64,000 bases of DNA, from assembly GCA_030710605.1 (NCBI GenBank), contig CP092874.1:20468611-20532610 (forward strand), in the 5' to 3' direction. Below the pieces are notes generated by a model. The model was not told where the DNA came from and searched no databases. It was given only the letters and a program-made list of their open reading frames with translations. Shown here piece after piece: positions 5,306-62,582 of this stretch. How positions within the stretch are numbered: the first letter of the stretch is position 1; each line of letters opens with the position of its first letter. The stretch is from Cordylochernes scorpioides (lineage: Eukaryota > Arthropoda > Arachnida > Pseudoscorpiones > Chernetidae). The position numbers and the translations under genes were made by a program.

Positions 5306-5638
5306 TCCTGCAATTTGTTAAATATATATGTCTACAATATTTTTATATTTCCCATAGTTTCGTTAAACAGCATCGCTAGGAATAAACCTATATATATACA
5401 GATATCAATATGCAAAAATTGTAGCGATCTAATGAATCAATTTGACAATATCACTGGAAAGGTTCACCACGGATAAACCAAACCATCCCAATTCTTTTTC
5501 ATATTCAGTTCACTAATTGCATGAATTTGTCCTTTATTTTGAAAGAAAAAAAAATCAATAGCACTGAATATTTCCATACTCTAAATAAATTTTATATTCA
5601 ATTTGATCATTGACTAATCATATTGTTGCATATTTGTA

Positions 5639-6079: not shown

Positions 6080-6640
6080 TTTTAAGAAAAAAAAGGCATC
6101 TCCTTATCGTGCAACTGAAAGTTGCTGACGGCTTGCGCCATCTATCGGAATAAATTCAGTTGCACGATAAGGAGATGCCTTTTTTGTCTTAATTTATACA
6201 CCTTATCCCAGTACAATATCACATTTGTACTATTATTTCACAACAAGATTTTTGTTCTATTTAATCTACAAAAAAATAATAAAACAAAAGTGAATTTGTA
6301 CTGGGATCGGGTGGATAAATTAAGAGAAAATAAAATTCATCTTGATAGTACAACTAAAAGTTGCTGATGGAGGGGGGCCATCTATCAGAATAAATATCAA
6401 TTGTTCGTTGCTTTTTTAATTATTCCAGAATTGGCCAAATACCCATTCTTAATTAATCAAGGGCCAACAGCCCGAAACCCGTACCTGGTTAGTATTTCTT
6501 GGTTAATAAAAATGGGTATTTGTGGCCAATTCTGGAATAATTAAAAATCAACGAATAGTTGAGATATTTATTCCGATAGATGGCGCAAGCCATCAGCAAC
6601 TTTTATTTGCACGTTCGGGAGATGTCTTTTTTATTTTTCC
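6080..6640. repeat. Family A repeats, left arm cluster 1
   Basis: Family A units run from GGCATCTCCTTATCGTGCAA through TTGCTGATGGCTTGCGCCAT to AATTGGCCAAATACCCATTC. Here several are arranged head to head. 6085-6190 is a compact hairpin in which two family A ends meet. 6345-6640 holds an inverted pair around a remnant hammerhead half (GGGCCAACAGCCCGAAAC near 6461) whose CTGATGA half is lost. The counterpart is 15440-16195. Confidence 0.75.
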
Positions 6641-7289
6641 TGAATGTATGATGTTATTTCATGGTAGTGTGTTTTTCATGGATGGTTAGCAATGTACTTT
6701 CCTTCTAGAGAGTTAAAAACAATTTTTAAAAATAACATTTTAAAAGAAAGTTTTCTATCATTATATTTTAATACGCAACAACAATATATTTTTTAAAAGG
6801 AAATTGTTTCCTTTTCCCCCTAAATATTTCATAGAGGAAAGCAACTTTTAAAGAAATTGTTCGATAAAAAATCTATAATGTAAACAAAAAGTTTTTTTTT
6901 TCCCTCTATTCTCTCAACAGAAATAATAATTTCGCATATAGAAAATTTTCTTTGAAATCATTTTTTTTTGATGGAAATCAATAAAAAAATATATCTTTTG
7001 TTTTTTTTTTCCGTTAAAATATTTATTTTCTTAAACAATTCGAATTATAGATCGATTAAAGAGAGAAATAAATTCGCAGAATAAATATGAAAAATAAAAT
7101 AACTTGGGTACCACTGTATTTCAATAAACACTATAAAATAGGATTTTTATATTGTCTCTCTCTCTATCTTATATATTATATTATATTTATGTTATAGTTT
7201 TTTAATGTTTCAGACATTTTTTAAACTGGATTTTACATTATGGATCCATTAAAGCATTTAATATATATATATATATACTAAAAAATTAT
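6641..7289. other. AT-rich stretch without gene
   Basis: Long A and T runs and short TA repeats, with no open frame and no recognisable element. It is conserved with 14800-15440 in the right arm. Confidence 0.4.
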
Positions 7290-7650
7290 ATTACTCGTAC
7301 GATGCACTAGCGCGCCATCTGTTATCAAATTACAAAACTATTTTAGACGCGTAATATTATTTTTTAAAAAATAAAAAATATATATATTTATAATAATATG
7401 TAATTCTGCTGCTGTCCTCAAAGCTTATGTCCATAGTTCATCTAAAATACCCATTCCAAGAGTCTACCAACAGTATCACTATAAAAGGAAGTTCCAAAAA
7501 TGCAATATAACAGCGGTATGGCGAAACCGCTGGGAGGGTTCACCACTGATGAGCCAGGCCCTCCCTTTAATTTTTCCATTGCAGTAAGGGCAGTAGAAAT
7601 TGTTTTATTTTAAAAAGAATATTACGCGTCTAAAATAGTTTCGTATTTTG
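7290..7650 (+). repeat. Family B repeat, left arm
   Basis: The ends carry GATGCACTAGCGCGCCATCT and ATTACGCGTCTAAAATAG, with GCAGTAAGGGCAGTAGAAAT between them. It includes the permuted hammerhead motif at 7511-7583, which here has a 12-nt internal deletion. Other copies are 13860-14215, 25150-25362, 48340-48500 and 48595-48880. Confidence 0.75.
7511..7569 (+). ncRNA. Reverse-order hammerhead motif, truncated copy
   Basis: It contains CAGCGGT-A, then CGAAACCGCTG, then CACCACTGATGAGCCAGG, as in the complete copy at 13933-14000. The linker and part of the stem I and stem II strands between the first two blocks are missing (about 12 nt), so stems I and II cannot both form. The GGGAGGG/CCCTCCC stem is intact. 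Confidence 0.5.
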
Positions 7651-7735
7651 ATACTAAAAAAATGCATTAAATATTGTATATATACTATAAATGTATTAAA
7701 ATATATTGTTTACTATATATATATATATATATATA

Positions 7736-7916
7736 CAGTAGAACTACCTCCCTGTAAAAGACAACACCTAATTACAGAGCCAAAGTGTCCTCTAGGGAGA
7801 GTTGTCTTCTTACTGGAGAGTTGCAAAAAGGTAAAAATGGTAATTTTGCAAATGAAAACTGTCCTTTATAGAGAAGTGTCTTCTAGAGTGAGTGTCCTCT
7901 CATGGAGGTTCTACTG
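7736..7916. mobile_element. pogo/Tigger-like MITE, left arm
   Basis: Ends CAGTAGAACTACCTCC and GGAGGTTCTACTG, flanked by TA, 181 bp, rich in short repeats of the GTGTCCTCT type. No coding capacity. The ends resemble those of pogo-like elements. The mirror copy is 13592-13772. Confidence 0.7.
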
Positions 7917-7999
7917 CATATTAAATACATTGTATAATATACATGTATACTATAAATGTATTAAAGATTGTAAATATTACATCGAATAAATACTTTTAA

Positions 8000-8765
8000 A
8001 TGTGAAAAAAGAAAGAAAAATGGGCAAGTGTTGATATTTTAAGAAAGAAAAAAAAAGGCATCTCCTTATCGTGCAACTGAAAGTTACTGATGACTTGCAA
8101 AATTTTGGTATAATTAAAAAAGCAACGAATAGTTTATATTTATTCCGATAGATGGCGCAAGCCATCAGCAAATTTTATTTGCACGATAAGGAGATGCCTT
8201 TTTTTTTTTCTTTCATAATTTATGCACCTTATCCCAGTACAATATCACATTTGTACTATTTTTCATAGGTGTTTATATTAAAAAAACAAAATTGTCATTT
8301 CTTTACCGCTATCTAAAATGGTCATATGAGAGGTCAGGAAATGCCCCCAATTTTGTTTTTAATACTTTCAAATATTATAAATATATTATCAAAAACTTCT
8401 AATTTACATATAACCTTATTTTACTACGGGAGACTATCACGAGAAAACGCGAGCTTCGAACAGAAAAGTCTATCTAGCATGTTTTTTTTTTTTTTTTACT
8501 ACTGAAAGTTGCTGATGGCTTACGCCATCTATCGGAATAAACATCAACTATTCGTTGGTTTTTAATAATTCCAGAATTGGCCAAATACCCATTCTTGATT
8601 AATCAAGAAAAACTAACCGCATACGCGTTCCGGGCTGTTGGCCCTCATCAGCGTGGTGGCGCAAGCCATCAGCAACTTTCAATTGCACGATAAGGAGATT
8701 CCTTTTTTTATTTCTTAATTTATACATCTTATCCCAGTACAATATCACATTTGTACTATTTTTTT
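8000..8765. repeat. Family A repeats, left arm cluster 2
   Basis: Two inverted pairs of family A ends (8050-8260 and 8500-8760). The second encloses a hammerhead-like motif on the minus strand at 8600-8655: CTGATGA core, perfect GGGC/GCCC stem, but GGAA in place of GAAA and a weak stem I. The counterpart in the right arm is 12735-13470. Confidence 0.7.
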
Positions 8766-9136
8766 AAACTTTATTTACTACGTTTAAAATTAAATACATA
8801 ATCTTACGAGTCGCCCTCACTGTCTGTTTAACCTTTTCTTACAACATAAACCTTAGATTATTAAAATATTGGATCAGTAAACATGAGGGCAACCATTTCT
8901 CTTAATTTTTCCTTACTTTATTTTTCATATAACACTTTTGTAAAAACAAAAAAAGGTGATAATGATAAATTCAATGAATATTTACACAATCATAGAAAAA
9001 TTATATTAAACCTTTATATAAACATAAATATTCTAACTAAATTAAACACTGTCGTTTATTTTGGTAAACAACTCTTCTTCAAGCCGTAAATTATTTACAT
9101 TAACCTTTATAATATTACACCTTTATAACATATAAC

Positions 9137-9177
9137 ACCTTGATAAAGGTTGGCGTTCAGCCAACTGAAATATTGGT
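9137..9177 (+). ncRNA. Hammerhead-like motif with UUGAUAA core
   Basis: Order: ACC (stem I), TTGATAA, a GTTGGC/GCCAAC stem II, GAAA, TAT, T, then GGT (stem I). Relative to the canonical CUGAUGA, positions 3 and 8 are both changed (C to U, G to A), which preserves a possible 3-8 base pair. Stem III is the self-complementary AUAU with no loop, so only a dimer could close it. Confidence 0.5.
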
Positions 9178-13772: not shown

Positions 13773-13859
13773 TATATATATATATAGTAAACAACAGATT
13801 TAATACATTTATAGTATATATACAATATTTAATGCATTTTTTAGTATCAAAATACGAAA

Positions 13860-14215
13860 CTATTTTAGACGCGTAATATTCTTTTTAAAATAAAACAATT
13901 TCTACTGCCCTTACTGCAATGGAAAAATTAATGGGAGGGCCTGGCTCATCAGTGGTGAACCCTCCCAGCGGTTTCGCCAGTTTAATCTACCATACCGCTG
14001 TTATATTGCATTTTTGGGACTTCCTTTTATAGTGATACTGATTCTTGACTTTTCGAATGGGTATTTTAGATGAACTATGGACATAAGCTTTTAGGACAGC
14101 ATAATTACATATAATTATAAATATATATTGTTTTATTTTAAAAGAATATTACGCGTCTAAAATAGTTTTGTAATTTGATAACAGATGGCGCGCTAGTGCA
14201 TCGTAATATAATTTT
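13860..14215 (-). repeat. Family B repeat, right arm (best copy)
   Basis: The counterpart of 7290-7650, with both end motifs (CTATTTTAGACGCGTAAT near 13859 and ATGGCGCGCTAGTGCATCG near 14185). It contains the complete reverse-order hammerhead at 13933-14000. Confidence 0.75.
13933..14000 (-). ncRNA. Hammerhead with reversed strand order (family B)
   Basis: Read on the minus strand in order. (1) CAGCGGT, A, TGGT: stem III 3' strand, cleavage-site A, stem I 5' strand. (2) An 8-nt linker. (3) CTGGC, GAAA, CCGCTG: stem II 3' strand, conserved GAAA, stem III 5' strand. (4) GGAGGGTTC. (5) ACCA, CTGATGA, GCCAG: stem I 3' strand, core, stem II 5' strand. Stem I is 4 bp, stem II 5 bp and stem III 7 bp including A15.1-U16.1. 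Every conserved base sits in the right place beside its stems. The three strands occur in the reverse of the canonical cyclic order, so all three stems cross. GGGAGGG/CCCTCCC adds a fourth stem. Confidence 0.65.
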
Positions 14216-14231
14216 TTAGTATATATATATG

Positions 14232-14455
14232 TAAAACGAAAATTGCAAATATACCGCGAATGTTTCTTTTATAAAAATCGAAATTTATTTTCAAAGAGAA
14301 ATCTTCATGTTTCACCTTTCCATACTTCATCCTCAAAGTTAGAAATGTCGCTATTTCTCTTTGAAAATAAATTTCGATTTTTATAAAAGAAACATTCGCG
14401 GTATATTTGCAATTTTCGTTTTACAATCATCAGCCGCGTTATATTGTATTTTAAA
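14232..14455. mobile_element. Foldback hairpin insertion (right arm only)
   Basis: Arms of about 75 bp (TAAAACGAAAATTGCAAATA and complement) surround a central TTTCACCTTTCCATACTTCA segment. The flanks share GTATATATATG, a likely target duplication in TA-rich sequence. The left arm has no insert at this place. The central part resembles the outer part of the large hairpin at 41699-42071, so the two are related. Confidence 0.7.
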
Positions 14456-16656: not shown

Positions 16657-17004
16657 TACAAATATGCAACAATATGATTAGTCAATGATCAAATTGAATA
16701 TAAAATGTATTTAGAGTATGGAAATATTCAGTGCTATTGATTTTTTTTCTTTCAAAATAAAAGACAAATTCATACAATTATTGAACTGAATATGAAAAAG
16801 AATTGGGATGGTTTGGTTTATCCGTGGTGAACCTTTCCAGTGATATTGTCAATTTGATTCATTAGATCGCCACAATTTTTGCATATTGATATCTGTATAT
16901 ATATAGGTTTATTCCTAGCGATGTTGTTTAACGAAACTATGGGAAATATGGGAATATTGTAAACATATATATTTAACAAATTGCAGGAGGATCAAATTCA
17001 TATA

Positions 17005-24450: not shown

Positions 24451-24591
24451 GACCCACTTATCTTTTTTTTTCTATTGTTTTTTCATGTGTTAAGCGTCTT
24501 TACGCAAATTTGGCCTTAAATACCCATTTCTTGATTTTTCGGGAAGCCATTAGGACCAAAAATCTTTTTGGTCGCAGTGGTTACAGTCTTC

Positions 24592-24633
24592 TCCACGCTG
24601 ACGAGCGTCAACAGCGCGAAACGCGTTCGTGGA
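24592..24633 (+). ncRNA. Intact hammerhead ribozyme, family C
   Basis: Stem I TCCACG (24592-24597) pairs with CGTGGA (24628-24633), 6 bp. Core CTGACGA is 24598-24604. Stem II is GCGT/GCGC (one U-G wobble) around CAACA. GAAA is 24618-24621. Stem III is AC/GT with only a 2-nt GC loop, and the predicted cleavage follows T24627 (GUU triplet). All core residues are intact. The very short stem III suggests dimer-assisted folding. Confidence 0.8.
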
Positions 24634-24714
24634 TGGCTTTTCTTGATAAATCAAGAAATTGGGTTGGCCAAATATCACGGAGCAAGCTAAATAAACGTTT
24701 AGTTTATTTTTGCT

Positions 24715-24728
24715 CCACTAGATGGCGC
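24715..24728 (+). promoter_or_regulatory. CTCF-consensus site in family C
   Basis: A second exact CCACTAGATGGCGC match to the CTCF core consensus, at the same place in the repeat. Confidence 0.5.
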
Positions 24729-24790
24729 TCTGCCATCTAAAAAGCACATGTGCTCGTGGTCAGGAGATGCCTTTTTTATTTTTAATATAT

Positions 24791-27903: not shown

Positions 27904-29240
27904 AGTCCATTAATAATGATTTACATTTTTTAAATAACATACGATATTCTTTCGTCCAATTCAATCTACAATTTTTATTCAAAAGTTGATAGAATAGCGC
28001 TAAAATGTTGGCTATATTCTTTATGAATCTATAATAATAAATTAAGAGTCCTATGAAAGATCTCAATTGCGAAACATTCTTTAGGTTCAGGCGCCTCTAT
28101 CACTGCTTTAATTTTATTTTATAAGGGATGCAGTCCATATTTATCCATTTTAAACCCTAAAAATTCCACCGATTACTTTTTAAATTTACATTTATATCTG
28201 TTTAACTTTGAACCTTTTTCTAGCAATCATCTAAACACTAGATCCAACTTTTGTTCATGATCTTCAAAATCTTTTCCTGCAACCAAAATATCTTCTATGT
28301 AGCAGGCCACACCTGGCAAATCAGAAAATAGGCCTTCCATAATCCTCTGAAATTTATTTGGTGCTACCGCTACGTCATATGGTAGTCTTTTATAAGAAAG
28401 CAACCTCTTTTTTGTGTTTATATCAACAACAGCTTTGGCTTCTTCCGCTAACATTACTTGTAAGTAAGCCTGTGATAGGTCTAGAGTCGAAAGTACGGTG
28501 CTTGTAGATAATTTTGAAAAGATCTCATCGATCGATGGAATGGAATACCTATCTAATTATATTGCTTTATTAGCTGTACATCTAGAATCACCACATATCC
28601 TTACACTACCATCCTTTTTTGATGCCGGTACTATTGGAGCGGTCCAATATGCATCAACTATAGGTTATAAAATGCAATAATTCATTAAACGATCAATTTC
28701 ATTCTCTACTTTGTTTTTTTGGAGAGAAAGGTAAACTTCTGGCCTTTACAAAACACAGGAGTCACATCCTTTTTTAAATTAAAATTTATTCCAACGTCCT
28801 TTAGACAGCCCAAATCTTTGTTAAACAAATCTGCATACCTACCATCAAATTTTTATATATTTAAATATATTTCTATTATATTCATTATTTAAAATTTTAA
28901 TGCTAAACAATATAGAATAATCAAGTTTCAACTGTTTAAGCCATTCTCTTCCTAATAAAATTACCTGGATTTTTTCATTTACAACTATTAATCGTAAATA
29001 TTGGTTGGTTTCTTTTACAAAAACATTTCTTTGATCTATAATCTCTATTGATTTACCACAAAAGGATTTTAATCTTATATTTGTTGGAAATAATTTTTAC
29101 CTTGCCAATAATTCTTATAAATGTCTTTGGGTATTAACGTAACTGGACTTCCTGTATCTATTGTAAAGCACAAAGAATAATCATCTACTGTTAAATTTAT
29201 TGTGGCATCAGTTTTGTCCTATACAGAATATATAGAGTCC
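27866..29240 (-). pseudogene. Ty3/gypsy protease and reverse transcriptase, broken
   Basis: Protease: an active-site DTGSPVTLIP near 29125-29165. Reverse transcriptase: TLDLSQAYLQV (metal-binding D, near 28450-28490), LPYDVAVAPNKFQ, then CYIEDILVAG, where the usual YxDD is YIED, so one catalytic aspartate is replaced. The thumb-like FIGLLIYYYRFI follows at 27866-28066. Multiple stops and frameshifts are present. Confidence 0.8.
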
Positions 29241-36474: not shown

Positions 36475-36605
36475 ATACTAGGAGGGCTTGGCTCATTAGT
36501 GGTGAACCCTTCCAGCGGTTTCAACAGTTTAAACTGGCGGTTACCTATAGGAGTGTTCGCCACTGATGAGCCAGGTATATTCCCAATTATAGTCATCGCC
36601 AAATG
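36475..36605. repeat. Family B fragment, scrambled inverted pair
   Basis: Two opposed copies of the CTGATGAGCCAGG block (minus near 36490, plus near 36574) surround a rearranged CCAGCGGTTTC and AAACTGGCGG core. The hammerhead is not complete in either direction. Confidence 0.55.
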
Positions 36606-38935: not shown

Positions 38936-39104
38936 TTACATTTAGTTGCCTGCTTTTTTACCTTTGTTGCATACTGTATACATATTCCTGATTTAATATT
39001 GAATTGTTATGTAAATATGTTCGTTTCTTTTTTCAAAACACGATTTTTTTTTATTAGATAGCTTATTGGAGAAAACTTTTGATACTTTCACATTTATTAT
39101 CTCA

Positions 39105-40156: not shown

Positions 40157-41065
40157 CTAGCGGACGTACCCGGCTTCGCCCGGGTTTTACCCGAATAAAA
40201 GTTTGTCTAACGAATCTCTCGATAAAGTGAACATTTTTTTCCCGGTCCCTTGAAAAATACTCGATAAGTTGAATAAAATCAATATTAATTGGTTCCCTCG
40301 GTAATTGGAAGTTAAAGGAATAGTATCTTGCCTTGGAATTGTATCATTATTCTTGTATGGATGTACCCGGCTTCGCCCGGGTTTTACCCGAGTAAAGGTT
40401 TGTTTAACGAATCTCTCGATAAAGAGAACATTTTTTCCCGGTCCCTTGAAAAATACTCGATAAGTTGAATAAAATCAATATTAATTGGTTCCCTCGGTAA
40501 TTGGAAGTTAAAGGAATAGTATCTTGCCTTGGAATTGTATCATTATTCTTGTATGGATGTACCCGGCTTCGCCCGGGTTTTACCCGAGTAAAGGTTTGTT
40601 TAACGAATCTCTCGATAAAGTGAACATTTTTCCCCGGTCCCTTGAAAAATACTCGATAAGTTGAATAAAATCAATATTAATTGGTTCCCTCGGTAATTGG
40701 AAGTTAAAGGAATAGTATCTTGCCTTTGAATTGTATCATTATTCTTGTCTCAAATAAATTGCCGTGTCATCCTGAATTTTGTCTTTCCTAATTTTCTACA
40801 TTACAAAATCATCGTATCATCATGATAATATTTAGAGCAGATTGTTGAATTATAACAGATAAATTAGAATATTTATCTTGATTATTTCTAGGCGAAAAGT
40901 TATTTCAAAAATTTTATTTGCTAGAAACCTTCCCAGTACTATACTAAATAACTTCCCAAAGTTTCATGGCGATCCAATGAGTGGTTTGGTCAGGCATAAA
41001 GGACAAACAAACAAACAAACAAACAAACAAACAGACACACATACATTCATTTTTATATATATAGA
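40157..41065 (-). mobile_element. Non-autonomous Helitron with tripled 3' end
   Basis: On the minus strand it starts TCTATATATATAAAAATG at 41065, preceded by A, and ends with the CCCGGGCGAAGCCGGG hairpin and CTAG at 40157, followed by T. The terminal about 196 bp, including the hairpin, is present three times in tandem (hairpins near 40170, 40367, 40563). An (AAAC)n run lies near 41007. No Rep/helicase. Confidence 0.85.
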
Positions 41066-43015: not shown

Positions 43016-44835
43016 CATGATTATCATGGTCTGGTACTACATGTGTAAACATGTGGTGTACTTACAGTACAAGCTGTCACAACCCTCTACCCACCATGTT
43101 ATCATGGCCTGGTACTACATGTGTAGACATGTGGTGTACTTACAGTACAAGCTGTCACAACCCTCTACCCACCATAGTTATCATGGCCTGGTACTTCACG
43201 TGTAAACATGTGGTGTACTTACAGTACAAGCTGTCACAACCCTCTACCCACCATGGTTATCATGGCCTGGTACTACATATGTAGACATGTGGTGTACTTA
43301 CAGTACAAGCTGTCACAACCCTCTACCCACCATGGTTATCATGGCCTGGTACTACACGTGTAAACATGCGGTGTACTTACAGTACAAGCTGTATTTCTAC
43401 CCACCATGATTATCATGGCCTGGTACTACATGTGTAGACATGTGGTGTACTTACAGTACAAGCTGTCACAACCCTCTATCCACCATGTTATCATGGCCTG
43501 GTACTACATATGTAGACATGTGGTGTACTTACAGTACAAGCTGTCACAACCCTCTACCCACCATGTTATCATGGCCTGGTACTACACGTGTAAACATGTG
43601 GTGTACTTACAGTACAAGCTGTCACAACCCTCTACCCACCATGGTTATCATGGCCTGGTACTACATGTGTAGACATGTGGTGTACTTACAGTACAAACTG
43701 TCACAACCCTCTACCCACCATGGTTATCATGGCCTGGTACTACATGTGTAGACATGTGGTGTACTTACAGTACAAGCTGTCACAACCCTCTACCCACCAT
43801 GGTTATCATGGCCTGGTACTACATGTGTAGACATGTGGTGTACTTACAGTACAAGCTGTCACAACCCTCTACCCACCATGGTTATCATGGCCTGGTACTA
43901 CATGTGTAGACATGTGGTGTACTTACAGTACAAGCTATCACAACCCTCTACCCACCATGGTTATCATGGCCTGGTACTACATGTGTAGACATGTGGTGTA
44001 CTTACAGTACAAGCTGTCACAACCCTCTACCCACCATGGTTATCATGGCCTGGTACTACATGTGTAGACATGTGGTGTACTTACAGTACAAGCTGTCACA
44101 ACCCTCTACCCACCATGTTATCATGGCCTGGTACTACATATGTAGACATGTGGTGTACTTACAGTACAAGCTGTCACAACCCTCTACCCACCATGTTATC
44201 ATGGCCTGGTACTACATGTGTAGACATGTGGTGTACTTACAGTACAAGCTGTCACAACCCTCTACCCACCATGGTTATCATGGCCTGGTACTACACGTGT
44301 AAACATGTGGTGTACTTACAGTACAAGCTGTTACAACCCTCTACCCACCATGGTTATCATGGCCTGGTACTACACGTGTAAACATGCGGTGTACTTACAG
44401 TACAAGCTGTCACAACCCTCTACCCACCATGGTTATCATGGCCTGGTACTACATGTGTAGACATGTGGTGTACTTACAGTACAAGCTGTCACAACCCTCT
44501 ACCCACCATGGTTATCATGGCCTGGTACTACATGTGTAGACATGTGGTGTACTTACAGTACAAGCTGTCACAACCCTCTACCCACCATGTTATCATGGCC
44601 TGGTACTACATGTGTAGACATATGGTGTACTTACAGTACAAGCTGTCACAACCCTCTACCCACCATGGTTATCATGGCCTGGTACTACATGTGTAGACAT
44701 ATGGTGTACTTACAGTACAAGCTGTCACAACCCTCTACCCACCATGGTTATCATGGCCTGGTACTACATGTGTAGACATGTGGTGTACTTACAATACAAG
44801 CTGTCTTTCTACCCACCATGATTATCATGGCCTGA
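43016..44835. repeat. 79-bp satellite array, about 23 units
   Basis: The unit reads ATCATGGCCTGGTACTACAT, GTGTAGACATGTGGTGTACT, TACAGTACAAGCTGTCACAA, CCCTCTACCCACCATGGTT. Units are 79 bp or 78 bp when one G is lost; two units near 43390 and 44805 carry an internal deletion. The unit corresponds to one stretch of the SINE 3' half (about 21998-22076), so it probably arose from a SINE tail. Open frames across it result from the absence of stops in the unit. Confidence 0.95.
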
Positions 44836-46299: not shown

Positions 46300-46440
46300 A
46301 CGAGGTACCCAGTGGTATCGCCAGCGGTCTGGTAGATTAAATTAGCGAAACCACTGGGAGGGTTAACCAATGATGAGCCAAGCCCTCCCAATATTTTTCA
46401 TCGCAGTAAGGACAGTAGAAGTTTGATTTATGTTTAAAAG
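46300..46440 (+). repeat. Family B fragment with compensatory stem change
   Basis: Reverse-order hammerhead remnant: CAGTGGT-A near 46310, a second CAGCGGT-C-TGGT at 46323-46334, GCGAAACCACTG, then ACCAATGATGAGCCAAG. The C of CTGATGA is A here, so it is inactive. CAGTGGT pairs perfectly with ACCACTG, a two-sided change relative to CAGCGGT/ACCGCTG. Confidence 0.55.
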
Positions 46441-48339: not shown

Positions 48340-48500
48340 TTCAAACTGGCGAAACCGCTGGGAGGGTTCACCACTGATGAGCCAGGCCCTCCCATTGCAG
48401 TAAGGGCAGTAGAAATTGTTTAATATCAAAAAGAATCTTACGCCTCTAAAATAATTTCGAATTTTGATAATAGATGGCGCGCTAGTGCATCATATTTAAA
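48340..48500 (+). repeat. Family B repeat, 5'-truncated
   Basis: Starts AACTGGCGAAACCGCTGGG and keeps CACCACTGATGAGCCAGG and both family B ends, but lacks the CAGCGGT-A-TGGT strand, so the hammerhead lacks its cleavage strand. Confidence 0.7.
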
Positions 48501-48594: not shown

Positions 48595-48880
48595 CCATAA
48601 ACACTCAAAAATATTACGATGCACTAGCGCGCCATCTGTTATCAAATTACGCCCTTACTGCAATAGAAAAATTAAAGGGAGGTCCTGGCTCATCAGTGGT
48701 GAATATAAATGCAATATAAACAGTGGTATGGTAGATTAAACTGGCTAAACCGCTGGGAGGGTTCACCACTGATGAGCCAGGCCATCCCTTTAATTTTTTC
48801 CTTTGCAGTAAGGGCAGTAGAAATTGTTTTATTTTAAAAAGAATATTACGCGTCTAAAATAGTTTCGTAATTTGACTCAA
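48595..48880 (+). repeat. Family B repeat, near full length
   Basis: Inverted family B ends at 48618-48640 and 48830-48880. It contains the reverse-order hammerhead at 48721-48788 and a minus-strand remnant at 48675-48705. Confidence 0.7.
48721..48788 (+). ncRNA. Reverse-order hammerhead motif, one core change
   Basis: CAGTGGT-A-TGGT, linker, CTGGC, TAAA, CCGCTG, then ACCACTGATGAGCCAGG. The order and stems are as at 13933-14000, with one U-G wobble in stem III. GAAA is TAAA here, so this copy should be inactive. Confidence 0.55.
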
Positions 48881-57037: not shown

Positions 57038-57108
57038 CCATCGGTGGTTCAGTGGTAGAATGCTCGCCTGCCACGCGGGCGGCCCGGGTTCGATTCCCGG
57101 CCGATGCA
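57038..57108 (+). tRNA. tRNA-Gly (GCC anticodon)
   Basis: A 71-nt cloverleaf: D-arm with GGTTCAGTGGTAGAAT (A box), anticodon stem CTCGC/GCGGG around TGCCACG with anticodon GCC, T-arm CCGGGTTCGATTCCCGG (B box), acceptor 3' strand CCGATGC and discriminator A. A run of 12 T follows at once, a Pol III terminator. The first acceptor pair is C-C instead of G-C because base 1 is C; the other pairs form. It decodes GGC/GGU. It is probably functional or very recently so. Confidence 0.88.
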
Positions 57109-59795: not shown

Positions 59796-60686
59796 TCACA
59801 AATAAAAAAAGATAGTCAAGATGTGAGGACAGCATTTATTATCCCCATATCCCAACACAAAGAGCTGCAAAATATTGGTAGATAATATAATACATGGCGG
59901 CTTATATAACACATGAGGTAACTGCCTTCTCTCTTGTATTAGGTCACAATCCTTGCTCAACGTGGCACCCTTCATTCTCAATCACCGCCTGCAGACGATA
60001 AATGACAGAATGGACAGCATTAAATAACATATCTGTTGAAATTGATAAAACGTGCCATCTGATAGAAGCCTTCAACATGGCCAATGTGGTAGGCCAGCAT
60101 CGATAAACACACGATTTAATGTACCCCCATAAACAAAAATCGCAAGGCGTCAAGTCTGGTGATCTTGGAGGCCACTGGTATATAAAGTGGCGACTTATCA
60201 CACGATTTTCACAGAACGTATCCTTCAGCAATTGTTTGGCACCTCGGGAGATATGAGGAGGTCCTCCATCTTTCATGAATGTTATTTCGCTTAGTGCTTT
60301 TGCCCTGCAATATGGAATACCCTTTTCTCTCAAAAGTTGGACATAACGTTCATCAGTTACAAAAACGGTTTTAAAAGTTCTTCCATTGATTTTTCAAAGA
60401 AAAATGGCCCAATAATAAAAGAAGTGAACCCAAACAAAACTGTAAATCTAGGCTGGTAAAGTGGCATTTCTGTAAAAATCCTAGGGTTGTCTGTTGCCCA
60501 AATGCGGCTGTTTTGAATGTTAAATTCTCCGTTTAGAGAAAAGTGAGCATCATCTGTCCACAGAACATTCGACAGCCAGTTTTCATCAATATCAATTCGC
60601 CGGAAAACCCATGCAGCGAATTCTTGACGCATCTCAAAATCGCCAACTTTCAGCTCGTGAAATCTTTGAATTTTGTATGGGTACAC
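59796..60686 (-). pseudogene. Mariner/IS630-type transposase, truncated, copy 2
   Basis: The catalytic half is well preserved: TDDAHFSL (first D, 60357-60686 frame), KDGGPPHISRG (second D) and WPPRSPDLTPCDFCLWGYIK (third D), ending IENEGCHVEQGL. One frame break lies near 60340-60360. The N-terminal DNA-binding region is missing because of the deletion at 60687. The motif layout fits mariner-like DDD transposases widespread in arthropods. Confidence 0.82.
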
Positions 60687-62582
60687 ACAATAGAGACATT
60701 AAGTAAAGCGTCTTCGGATATCACAATCATACTCGGCGAATTTAACTCCAAAAGTTCAATTTGGGGATCACCTGTCCAGGATAACAAAAGTCAGCAGGTT
60801 GAGAACATGCTAACCGACCTCGACCTTACACCGTTAAATAACGGAGAGAACACCTATCTAAGTCCACAGGCACAGAATCCGCAATAGACATCACAGCGAT
60901 AAATTACAACATCGCACCCACAACACAATGGAAAATCCTGAGAGGTGCAATCAGTGACCACAGACCAATTTTAACAACCCTAAACTTCAAAATTGAGAAC
61001 GTCCATTAGAATAAAAGAACATGGAACTTTAGGAAAGCCGAAAAAAATTCACAGAAAAGCTTGAAGAACTGTGCAACGAAAAATTGAATTACAGAACCCT
61101 TGACAAAAACTTGGAAAAATTCTCTTCGAACATTTCAAAATCTGCAAAAGCATCGATACCTAGAGGTAGACGTAAAGACCTGTGGATACTTTACTGGAAG
61201 GACCACAACATCGAGGCAATAATTTCAGAGAGAGAGAGACAATATCAATGAACTTCTTAAAAAAATAAAACAGAAGAAAACAGAAAGAACTCATTGAAAT
61301 TAGTCACAAAATAGAACAAGAAATTTGGATATGCAAACAAGAAAAATGGCAGAATTCTGCGAAAAAATGGATCCAAAAAAGGACAGCCAACACTGGAATA
61401 TGATTAGAGTGTTAGAGAACAATCAACACCAACACCAATCCTCCAATACTCTAACCGATATGAATAGAACAGCGCGAACGAGAACAAACAGATGGCTGAC
61501 ATAATTCCTGAATATCTTTCAAGCACTTCCATACTCAACTATACGAATGAAGACAGGACTCTAAAAATAATATAAACCGGTTTGTTAAACAAGCAAGAAA
61601 CTTCCATCAACAAGATATTTTCTCGAGAGACTTCACACTGAATGAGCTAAACTTATCAATAAAAAAATCCAAGAGGTCACCAAGAGATAATCTAATCTTT
61701 GGTTAAATGATCAAACACTTTGAAGACAAAGCTAATAATCAACTCCTACGAATACTGAACATTTCATGGCAAACTGGTAAACTACCAAAGAATTGGAAGA
61801 TATCAATTATAGTGCCAATACTGAAGCCAAACAAAGATGCCAAGGAATACAAGAACTATCGGCCAATTGCTTTCACCAGCAAACTTTGTAAAATACCAGA
61901 ACGAATTATCCACTCTAGGCTCATAGTCTGGCTCACTAACAATAATAAAATAAACCTCTACCAAACTGCCTATAGATCCCAGCACTGTACGACTGATCAA
62001 CTGTTTTACTTCTGTCAATCAATAATAAATTCTTTCCAGGAAAAACCGCCAAAGAAGACCACGGCTATATTCCTTGATATGACCTCAGCTTTTGATCGAG
62101 TGTGGAGGGAGAAATTACGTGTAAAGCTGCACAACATCGGAGTAAGAGAAAAACCTTAATCTGGATTACAGACTTCTTAAGGGGAAGAAGGTTAAAGGTT
62201 CGGGTCAATGGAGAATTTTCCAAGGAAGGAAGAACATGGGCTGGTGTAACTCAGGGATCTGTGCTCAGTCCTCTACTCTATCTGCTATATATTAACGACA
62301 TCTATCCTTACCTCACTGAAGACACAAAGGTTGTCTGTTATGCAGATGATATAGCCATATGGCACACAAGTAGCAGCATAGAAAAATCGTAAAAAATACT
62401 GAACACATCAATGAGAGGACTGGAGAAGTGGGCAATGGAACTCCAAATGACCATAAACCCAATAAAACCAAACCTATGCGTCTTCTCCACTCACAGAGAA
62501 AAAGGCATAAATATAACAAAAAAATAAGCATAAACAAACAAATGATTGATAAAATTAGAAATCCATAATACCTAGGTGTGAT
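60687..62582 (+). pseudogene. Jockey-like LINE ORF2 (endonuclease and RT), copy 2
   Basis: Starts inside the endonuclease (ITIILGEFNSKSSIWGSP, LTDLDLTPLNNGENT) and continues through KYKNYRPIAFT-like RT sequence: LKPNKDAKEYKNYRPIAFTS, AIFLDMTSAFDRVW (motif A), TQGSVLSPLLYLLYIND and VVCYADDIAIW (YADD active site at about 62335-62365). Several frame breaks (near 60880, 61700, 62150, 62390). It reverse-transcribes LINE RNA at the target site; this copy is dead. Confidence 0.85.

Follow-up and report, generated by a model that had tools for sequence, protein, structure and literature searches.

Can the strands of a hammerhead ribozyme follow one another in the reverse of their usual cyclic order, and what would carry such a ribozyme in an animal genome? 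The question is raised by a 64,000-nucleotide stretch of the pseudoscorpion Cordylochernes scorpioides (GenBank assembly GCA_030710605.1, contig CP092874.1, positions 20,468,611 to 20,532,610 of the forward strand), hereafter the window, whose minus strand holds the three strands of a hammerhead in a compact block at 13933-14000. We consider it highly probable, judging from sequence, that this block is a type-SGC (non-circularly permuted) hammerhead, carried by a tandem element of 371 or 372 bp that has no long open reading frame (ORF) and would propagate by the cycle proposed below.

In what follows, block S is the strand with the cleavage site, block G the one with GAAA and block C the one with CUGAnGA. 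From 14000 down to 13933, the minus strand reads CAGCGGT-A-TGGT / AGATTAAA / CTGGC-GAAA-CCGCTG / GGAGGG-TTC-ACCA-CTGATGA-GCCAG-G-CCCTCC-C, giving the order S-G-C, the reverse of the classic cyclic one. Stems III, I and II have 7, 4 and 5 bp, all perfect, with A15.1-U16.1 included in the count for stem III, and CUGAnGA, GAAA, A15.1-U16.1 and H17 are all present, each adjoining its correct stem. An earlier note on this DNA had described a three-strand, reverse-order hammerhead at this place, and the sequence bears it out; its judgment that the linker between stems I and II is sterically plausible is likewise supported, and its expected cut after A17 stands as a prediction by analogy with published ribozymes (PMC10085705). 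The same note held the order to be unlike that of any known hammerhead, which the publication of type-SGC contradicts (PMC10085705), and it took GGAGGG for merely a hard linker. This hexamer in fact pairs with CCCTCC, forming the fourth helix of type-SGC, which links the other sides of stems I and II.

In Eckert et al. 2023 (PMC10085705), the orders CGS, GSC and SCG are those of the classic types I, II and III; 583 type-SGC hammerheads were predicted, the five tested ones cleave in vitro, and the four helices were tested by mutation in one of them. The motifs of that study are given as almost all exclusive to metatranscriptomes, with none in genomes of known organisms save a GCS candidate. The window's block shares with the type-SGC/HRIMA-1 motif its order, the core elements CUGAnGA, GAAA, A15.1-U16.1 and H17, stems I, II and III and the fourth helix, and its stem III is joined to the fourth helix by 0 nt, a direct join said to be present in a few of the published examples. 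It differs in being encoded in a mobile repeat of a 2.6-Gb eukaryotic genome, and in its linker between stems I and II, which typically has 3 nt in the published motif but 8 nt here in subfamily S0 and 5 nt in subfamily S1, where stem I is extended.

How often would such a block arise by chance? In an order-blind scan requiring stems of at least 4 bp and counting palindromic stems twice, Markov sequence derived from the window (46 Mb, one strand) gave one match with 13 Watson-Crick pairs and none with 15. A looser scan that counts such stems once (stems I and II of at least 4 bp, stem III of at least 2, at least 12 pairs) returned four matches from 32.5 Mb of Markov sequence, namely CSG with 14 pairs, CGS with 13, CGS with 15 and SGC with 13. 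For the window, taken as 128 kb over both strands, about 0.004 matches with 15 pairs are expected in any order. The window together with 19 arbitrary 10-kb stretches (254 kb, both strands) contained ten matches against about 0.06 expected, eight of them CGS (type I) and two SGC, and none in the other four orders; six of the eight CGS matches fall in one array (L049). That a 15-pair match can appear in Markov sequence at all (one in 32.5 Mb, in the order CGS) tells against a ribozyme and in favour of a chance resemblance within a repeat, as does the similarity of the words ACCGCTG and ACCACTG, which leaves stems I and III not fully independent. Given the low expectation in the window and the conservation and compensation between subfamilies, we regard coincidence as having a negligible probability.

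Because young copies are alike, we compared subfamilies instead, using reference units for S0 (from L031) and S1 (from L055) and counting gaps as differences. The two are identical at 63/68 alignment columns in the ribozyme, 54/97 upstream and 144/222 downstream. Their five differences comprise the outermost stem III base, A17C, which is an allowed letter at that position, an A to G change in the linker by which stem I grows to UGGUGGA/UUCACCA, and two changes, C to U and G to A, that make up a compensatory exchange of C-G for U-A at the pair closing stem II. Among exact 40-mers of the G-C part genome-wide, this pair is C-G in 13,344, U-A in 16,950, U.G in 356 and C.A in 333, a total of 30,983. 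Subfamily S2 (L038, L009) shows a G-C to A-U exchange at the end of the fourth helix, with AU in three aligned rows, and its copy in L038 has a stem I that we read by eye as UAG/CUA. The exchanges in stem II and the fourth helix do not lie at CpG. Hammerhead core letters are kept in S0, S1, the few copies of S2 and the one copy of S3, and are lost in subfamily X. In nine of the ten pairs formed by S0, S1, S2 (L038) and two X copies, conservation is higher in the ribozyme than in the 100 nt to either side (Fisher p ≤ 0.00034), the exception being X against X (p 0.53); these values serve as guides, alignment columns not being independent, and the S0-S1 comparison here counts 78 columns, an insertion at the edge falling inside. 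Eleven further pairs with L009 and L011 pass 0.003 and are not fair tests, because an inverted copy lies upstream there.

The earlier note had also proposed compensation in stem III, from CAGCGGT/ACCGCTG to CAGTGGT/ACCACTG near 46310. The CAGTGGT at 46310-46316 is out of register, since the strand that does align starts 12 nt further downstream, at 46322; that strand reads CAGCGGTC and leaves a C.A mismatch with ACCACTG, and the proposed compensation does not hold. The wobble intermediate that the note placed at 48721 is present as a T.G pair, but it sits in a CpG, and CpG decay is its likely cause.

Pairing was then counted over unselected copies. Among 110 distinct matches, 43 had been chosen by exact match and were excluded; 37 of the remaining 67 covered the ribozyme with fewer than 12 gaps, and dropping three inverted chimeras left 34 aligned copies (33 distinct). 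Pairs are formed in 82.3% of 651 cells, compared with 80.2% in shuffles (none of 500 reach the observed value) and 34-51% with slid partners; for the fourth helix, 82.8% of cells are paired. Changes on both sides affect 12 pairs against a shuffled mean of 6.8 (reached in 2/500) and 28 cells against 12.6 (0/500). The covariation is strong at the outer pair of stem II (16 CG and 13 UA of 33) and weak in stems I and III, and we accept it as covariation of the fold. Relative to the window copy, changed cells number 34/356 in the core, 248/1381 at paired and other positions, 35/264 in the linker between stems I and II, and 20/29 at H17. The alternative given in the earlier note, a scrambled relic, is unlikely because the fold is kept across subfamilies.

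What, then, is the carrier? In the genome (2.62 Gb in 24 contigs), the 35-nt S-G half occurs at 29,031 places with at most two mismatches; as a control, the same sequence written backwards matches nowhere. The tandem copies repeat every 371 bp, or every 372 bp in S1; the unit has a GC content of 34%, and five array loci (L031-L035) contain no ORF of at least 150 aa. Several arrays, among them L006, L017, L032-L035 and C1:7156396-7161964, are arranged head to head, with the minus-strand copies first and the plus-strand copies after them.

Tandem arrangement gives room to the main rival, a hammerhead of canonical order assembled across neighbouring units, which would work in multimers only and be silent in monomers and circles. 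The strand orders of types I, II and III are not found in a single unit and appear only when blocks of two adjacent units are combined: block G with the next unit's S and C yields the type II order, and S and C with the next unit's G the type III order. The units do stand in tandem, and a descriptor scan of the doubled unit lists both the GSC and the SCG combination. Such a fold would, however, need one loop of more than 300 nt though the same stems can pair locally, and the fourth helix, the 0-nt join and the 68-nt block match type-SGC ribozymes that cleave as single short transcripts (PMC10085705). The same letters serve both folds, so that sequence alone cannot decide; we nevertheless hold the cross-unit assembly to be unlikely.

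Metazoan non-LTR retrozymes are described in PMC7229834 as low-GC tandem repeats of 150-450 bp that carry type I hammerheads and have larger target duplications. Linear and circular RNAs in abundance are a further trait of the class. Our element resembles them in its tandem units of a few hundred base pairs, present as dimers to multimers, in its low GC and in its target duplications exceeding 4 bp. Flanking direct repeats of at least 8 bp were found at 17 of 51 copy clusters compared with 26 of 908 random boundary pairs, a control that applies to this minimum length; repeats of 12-15 bp flank 11/51, among them L013, in which two copies are combined. The element departs from retrozymes in the order of its ribozyme, SGC in place of type I. 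Since this defining feature fails, we read the element as retrozyme-like and do not call it a retrozyme.

The form of the insertions points to Penelope-like elements (PLEs). We surveyed 13 insertions with flanking repeats of 9 bp or more (12 from the flank survey, L031 by eye). Eight carry the tail AACAGATGGCGC...CATC or a close form at one outer end, the other end being about 30-45 nt shorter; among the other five, L013 is tailed at either end, L031 consists of direct tandem copies with a single tail, and L025, L011 and L034 are without one. Together with the head-to-head inverted copies, we count these eight as being of Penelope-like form. According to PMC3846280 and PMC11167929, PLEs similarly show tandem and head-to-head inverted copies, an optional 30-40 bp tail at one end, comparable target duplications (8-10 bp in their case) and a hammerhead upstream of the start of reverse transcription. 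Two differences stand out: the 371-bp unit lacks a long ORF, and PLE hammerheads are minimal type I ribozymes (PMC7229834). An ORF joining a reverse transcriptase (PF00078, 1.7e-11) to a GIY-YIG endonuclease (PF01541, 1.5e-4, 22.4 bits, just below the cut-off of 22.6) does exist in the genome, at L047, and none was found inside the element among ORFs of at least 150 aa in L031-L035. The element is, on these grounds, probably moved by Penelope-like machinery. A search for CTGA.GA...GAAA near PLE pieces in L001 and L047 found nothing of hammerhead kind. In L054, near 1701 (minus) and 2693 (plus), the same CTGAAGA..GAAA string flanks a PLE piece in inverted orientation and fails the stem rules of the scan.

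We also considered a ribozyme in the 5' UTR of a LINE, as an SGC copy is joined to a LINE ORF1 (PRE_C2HC) in L001, L002 and L003. The junction has seven matches with at most two mismatches; because only those three are exact, all within 350 kb on C1, we take it for a local duplication.

From these features we infer transcription, cleavage, circularisation and the identity of the helper in the following way. In multimeric transcripts, each unit would fold two adjoining hairpins, stem III and the fourth helix. Pairing between their loops would form stems I and II and bring the hammerhead core together. Cleavage after A17 (or C17) in each unit would then release 371-nt monomers that may be circularised. 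A PLE reverse transcriptase/endonuclease would turn monomers, circles or multimers left uncut into DNA, with synthesis beginning at two sites that lie about 85 and 120 nt downstream of the ribozyme. Such copying would give rise to tandem and head-to-head copies, the one-sided tail and target duplications of 9-15 bp. Since hammerhead mutants of one PLE left insertion unaffected in vitro (PMC11167929), the ribozyme may serve the production of monomers or circles rather than insertion itself.

Several observations weigh against a working type-SGC ribozyme spread in this manner. The stem II exchange was probably one ancestral event, and the genome-wide 40-mer counts of its closing pair therefore show the completeness of fixation and not the frequency of the event. 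The A-U state of the fourth helix in S2 occurs at 247 exact places, a count that covers this state and not the single-sided ones, S2 itself being represented by few copies (L038, L009) and S3 by one. In the unselected copies, further pair types number 28 against 24.8 in shuffles (39/500), a weak excess. S1 and S2 have lost the outermost stem III pair, which is unpaired in 14 of 23 cells, stem I of S0 has only 4 bp, many copies have broken pairs, and subfamily X lacks the core. Among the loci examined, no PLE was seen to carry a type-SGC ribozyme in its own terminal repeat. Finally, nested folding prefers other pairs inside the two hairpin loops, with a minimum free energy (MFE) of -28.0 for S0 and -27.8 for S1. 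The scaffold of stem III and the fourth helix alone has -16.2; the further contributions of stems I and II would be about -2.5 and -6.8 (S0) or -7.4 and -5.2 (S1) before the pseudoknot cost. Because the nested loop pairs beat the bare scaffold before stems I and II and the pseudoknot cost are considered, the active fold is plausible in these models but is not predicted to dominate.

The same calculation suits a different proposal, in which the block descends from a ribozyme but has lost catalysis, and its RNA structure persists because the reverse transcriptase or another protein binds to it. Its nested MFE structure consists of two strong hairpins (z -3.18), the sequence directly downstream of the ribozyme is also fairly conserved, and the PLE hammerhead was dispensable for insertion in vitro (PMC11167929). 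A dead structure would not readily account for unpaired core letters that persist in S0 and S1, in the few copies of S2 and in the single one of S3, for a position 17 that varies among allowed letters, or for the covarying stem II, which lies outside the nested hairpin fold. We judge it very unlikely, and continue with an active type-SGC hammerhead.

Table. Coordinates in the window of the ribozyme, its parts, its insertion and the other copies.
Feature	Position	Strand	Details or basis
Type-SGC hammerhead ribozyme (candidate), 68 nt	13933..14000	-	Block order, stems, core, scans
Block S	13989..14000	-	Stem III 3' strand CAGCGGT (14000-13994; U16.1 = 13994), A17 = 13993, stem I 5' strand TGGT (13992-13989)
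Predicted cut	between 13993 and 13992	-	Analogy with PMC10085705
Linker AGATTAAA, stem I to stem II	13981..13988	-	Sequence
Block G	13966..13980	-	Stem II 3' strand CTGGC (13980-13976), GAAA (13975-13972), stem III 5' strand CCGCTG (13971-13966)
Fourth helix, 5' strand GGAGGG	13960..13965	-	Fold; fourth helix of type-SGC in PMC10085705
Block C	13941..13956	-	Stem I 3' strand ACCA (13956-13953), CTGATGA (13952-13946), stem II 5' strand GCCAG (13945-13941)
Fourth helix, 3' strand CCCTCC	13934..13939	-	Pairing with GGAGGG
Whole insertion, 363 bp	13848..14210		Minus-strand copy (13848-14127) head to head with plus-strand fragment (14127-14210)
Tail AACAGATGGCGCGCTAGTGCATCGTAATATA, at one outer end only	14180..14210	+	Sequence; compare PLE tail
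Target-site duplication, left, ATTTTTTAGTAT	13836..13847		Flanks of the window insertion
Target-site duplication, right, ATTTTTTAGTAT	14211..14222		Flanks of the window insertion
Second nearly complete copy, subfamily S0	48721..48789	+	Alignment
Copy of subfamily S1, decayed	46322..46389	+	Alignment
Copy with 13 nt deleted between blocks S and G	7512..7566	+	Alignment
Copy without block S	48341..48395	+	Alignment
Diverged copy without block S	36480..36536	-	Alignment
Old subfamily X, hammerhead core lost	16805..16872	-	Alignment
Old subfamily X, hammerhead core lost	5422..5489	+	Alignment

The ribozyme class has been known since 2023; its setting in a genomic mobile repeat is new as far as our searches go, within a literature that leaves most subscription journals outside its scope. 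Rfam at gathering scores reported only a tRNA within the window, and nothing of hammerhead kind up to E 1 in four array loci. Rfam models are pseudoknot-free and cannot express the S-G-C order. Over the whole genome RF00163 gave no match, as in 14 control genomes, which makes the result uninformative. A 36-mer of the G-C part had no exact match in viral_contigs, nor in genome_contigs, a collection of prokaryotes from which records near the source genome were possibly left out. The 82-bp core likewise gave no match in a DNA search, probably an effect of the skipping of common words.

Ordinary type I hammerheads occur in the same genome. Tandem 319-bp units with a canonical type I hammerhead fill L049 from 7246 to 9137, a minus run and then a plus run, head to head, and further type I matches lie in L040 and L053. 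The plus strand of the window at 24590-24640 looks like a canonical minimal type I hammerhead, PLE-like (TCCACG CTGACGA GCG..CGC GAAA C..G UU CGTGGA); it scores 20.3 bits with Rfam HH9, below the gathering score of 52, and with a stem III of 2 bp it stays below the 12-pair mark of the looser scan. The SGC unit, the type I unit and the PLE-like element all have AGATGGCG downstream (window 14180-14210 and 24720-24730; L049 near 8760 and 9080), a possible shared start signal for one reverse transcriptase.

More tentatively, and with rather less than even confidence, we suggest that the element is a separate retrozyme lineage in which an active SGC hammerhead replaced type I, with the PLE machinery and the tail motif AGATGGCG common to the type I retrozymes of the same genome; in its DNA copies, the SGC ribozymes seen in environmental RNA would have a reservoir and possibly their origin. 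The sequences in which a non-circularly permuted RNA fold was described in 2023 came from unspecified hosts. With many thousands of diverging copies, a single eukaryotic genome would provide a natural mutational series for that fold, a host in which cleavage and circularisation could be tested, and a means of asking how the permutation evolved beside ordinary type I retrozymes. If this is true, one genome would show how a non-circular permutation arises and is kept.

Some minor observations concern the element and its surroundings. Of the 100 exact S2 matches listed, 20 are clustered at C3:55990926-56001594, for the most part spaced by multiples of about 80 bp, and may belong to a satellite that consists almost entirely of the ribozyme. 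The head-to-head junction at L033 1087-1186 reaches 43 bits for MIR1120 (cut-off 86), and such junction hairpins could be miscalled as miRNA. Adjoining the window insertion is a 73-nt perfect inverted repeat (14230-14302 and 14353-14425, with 50 nt between). Another repeat family, TTTATTCCGATAGATGGCGCAAGCC.TCAGCAA, is found in the window at 6142, 6579, 8151, 13353, 15486, 16138 and 58645, some copies in a palindromic setting and with AGATGGCGC in common. The window further contains a 79-bp satellite of 23 copies (43016-44834), a 196-bp repeat in three copies at 40162, a 162-bp repeat in 3.2 copies at 39095, LINE-like endonuclease and reverse transcriptase pieces (PF14529 and PF00078; 31553-32191 minus, 60543-60887 plus, 61707-62159 plus) and a tRNA gene (57038-57108, plus).
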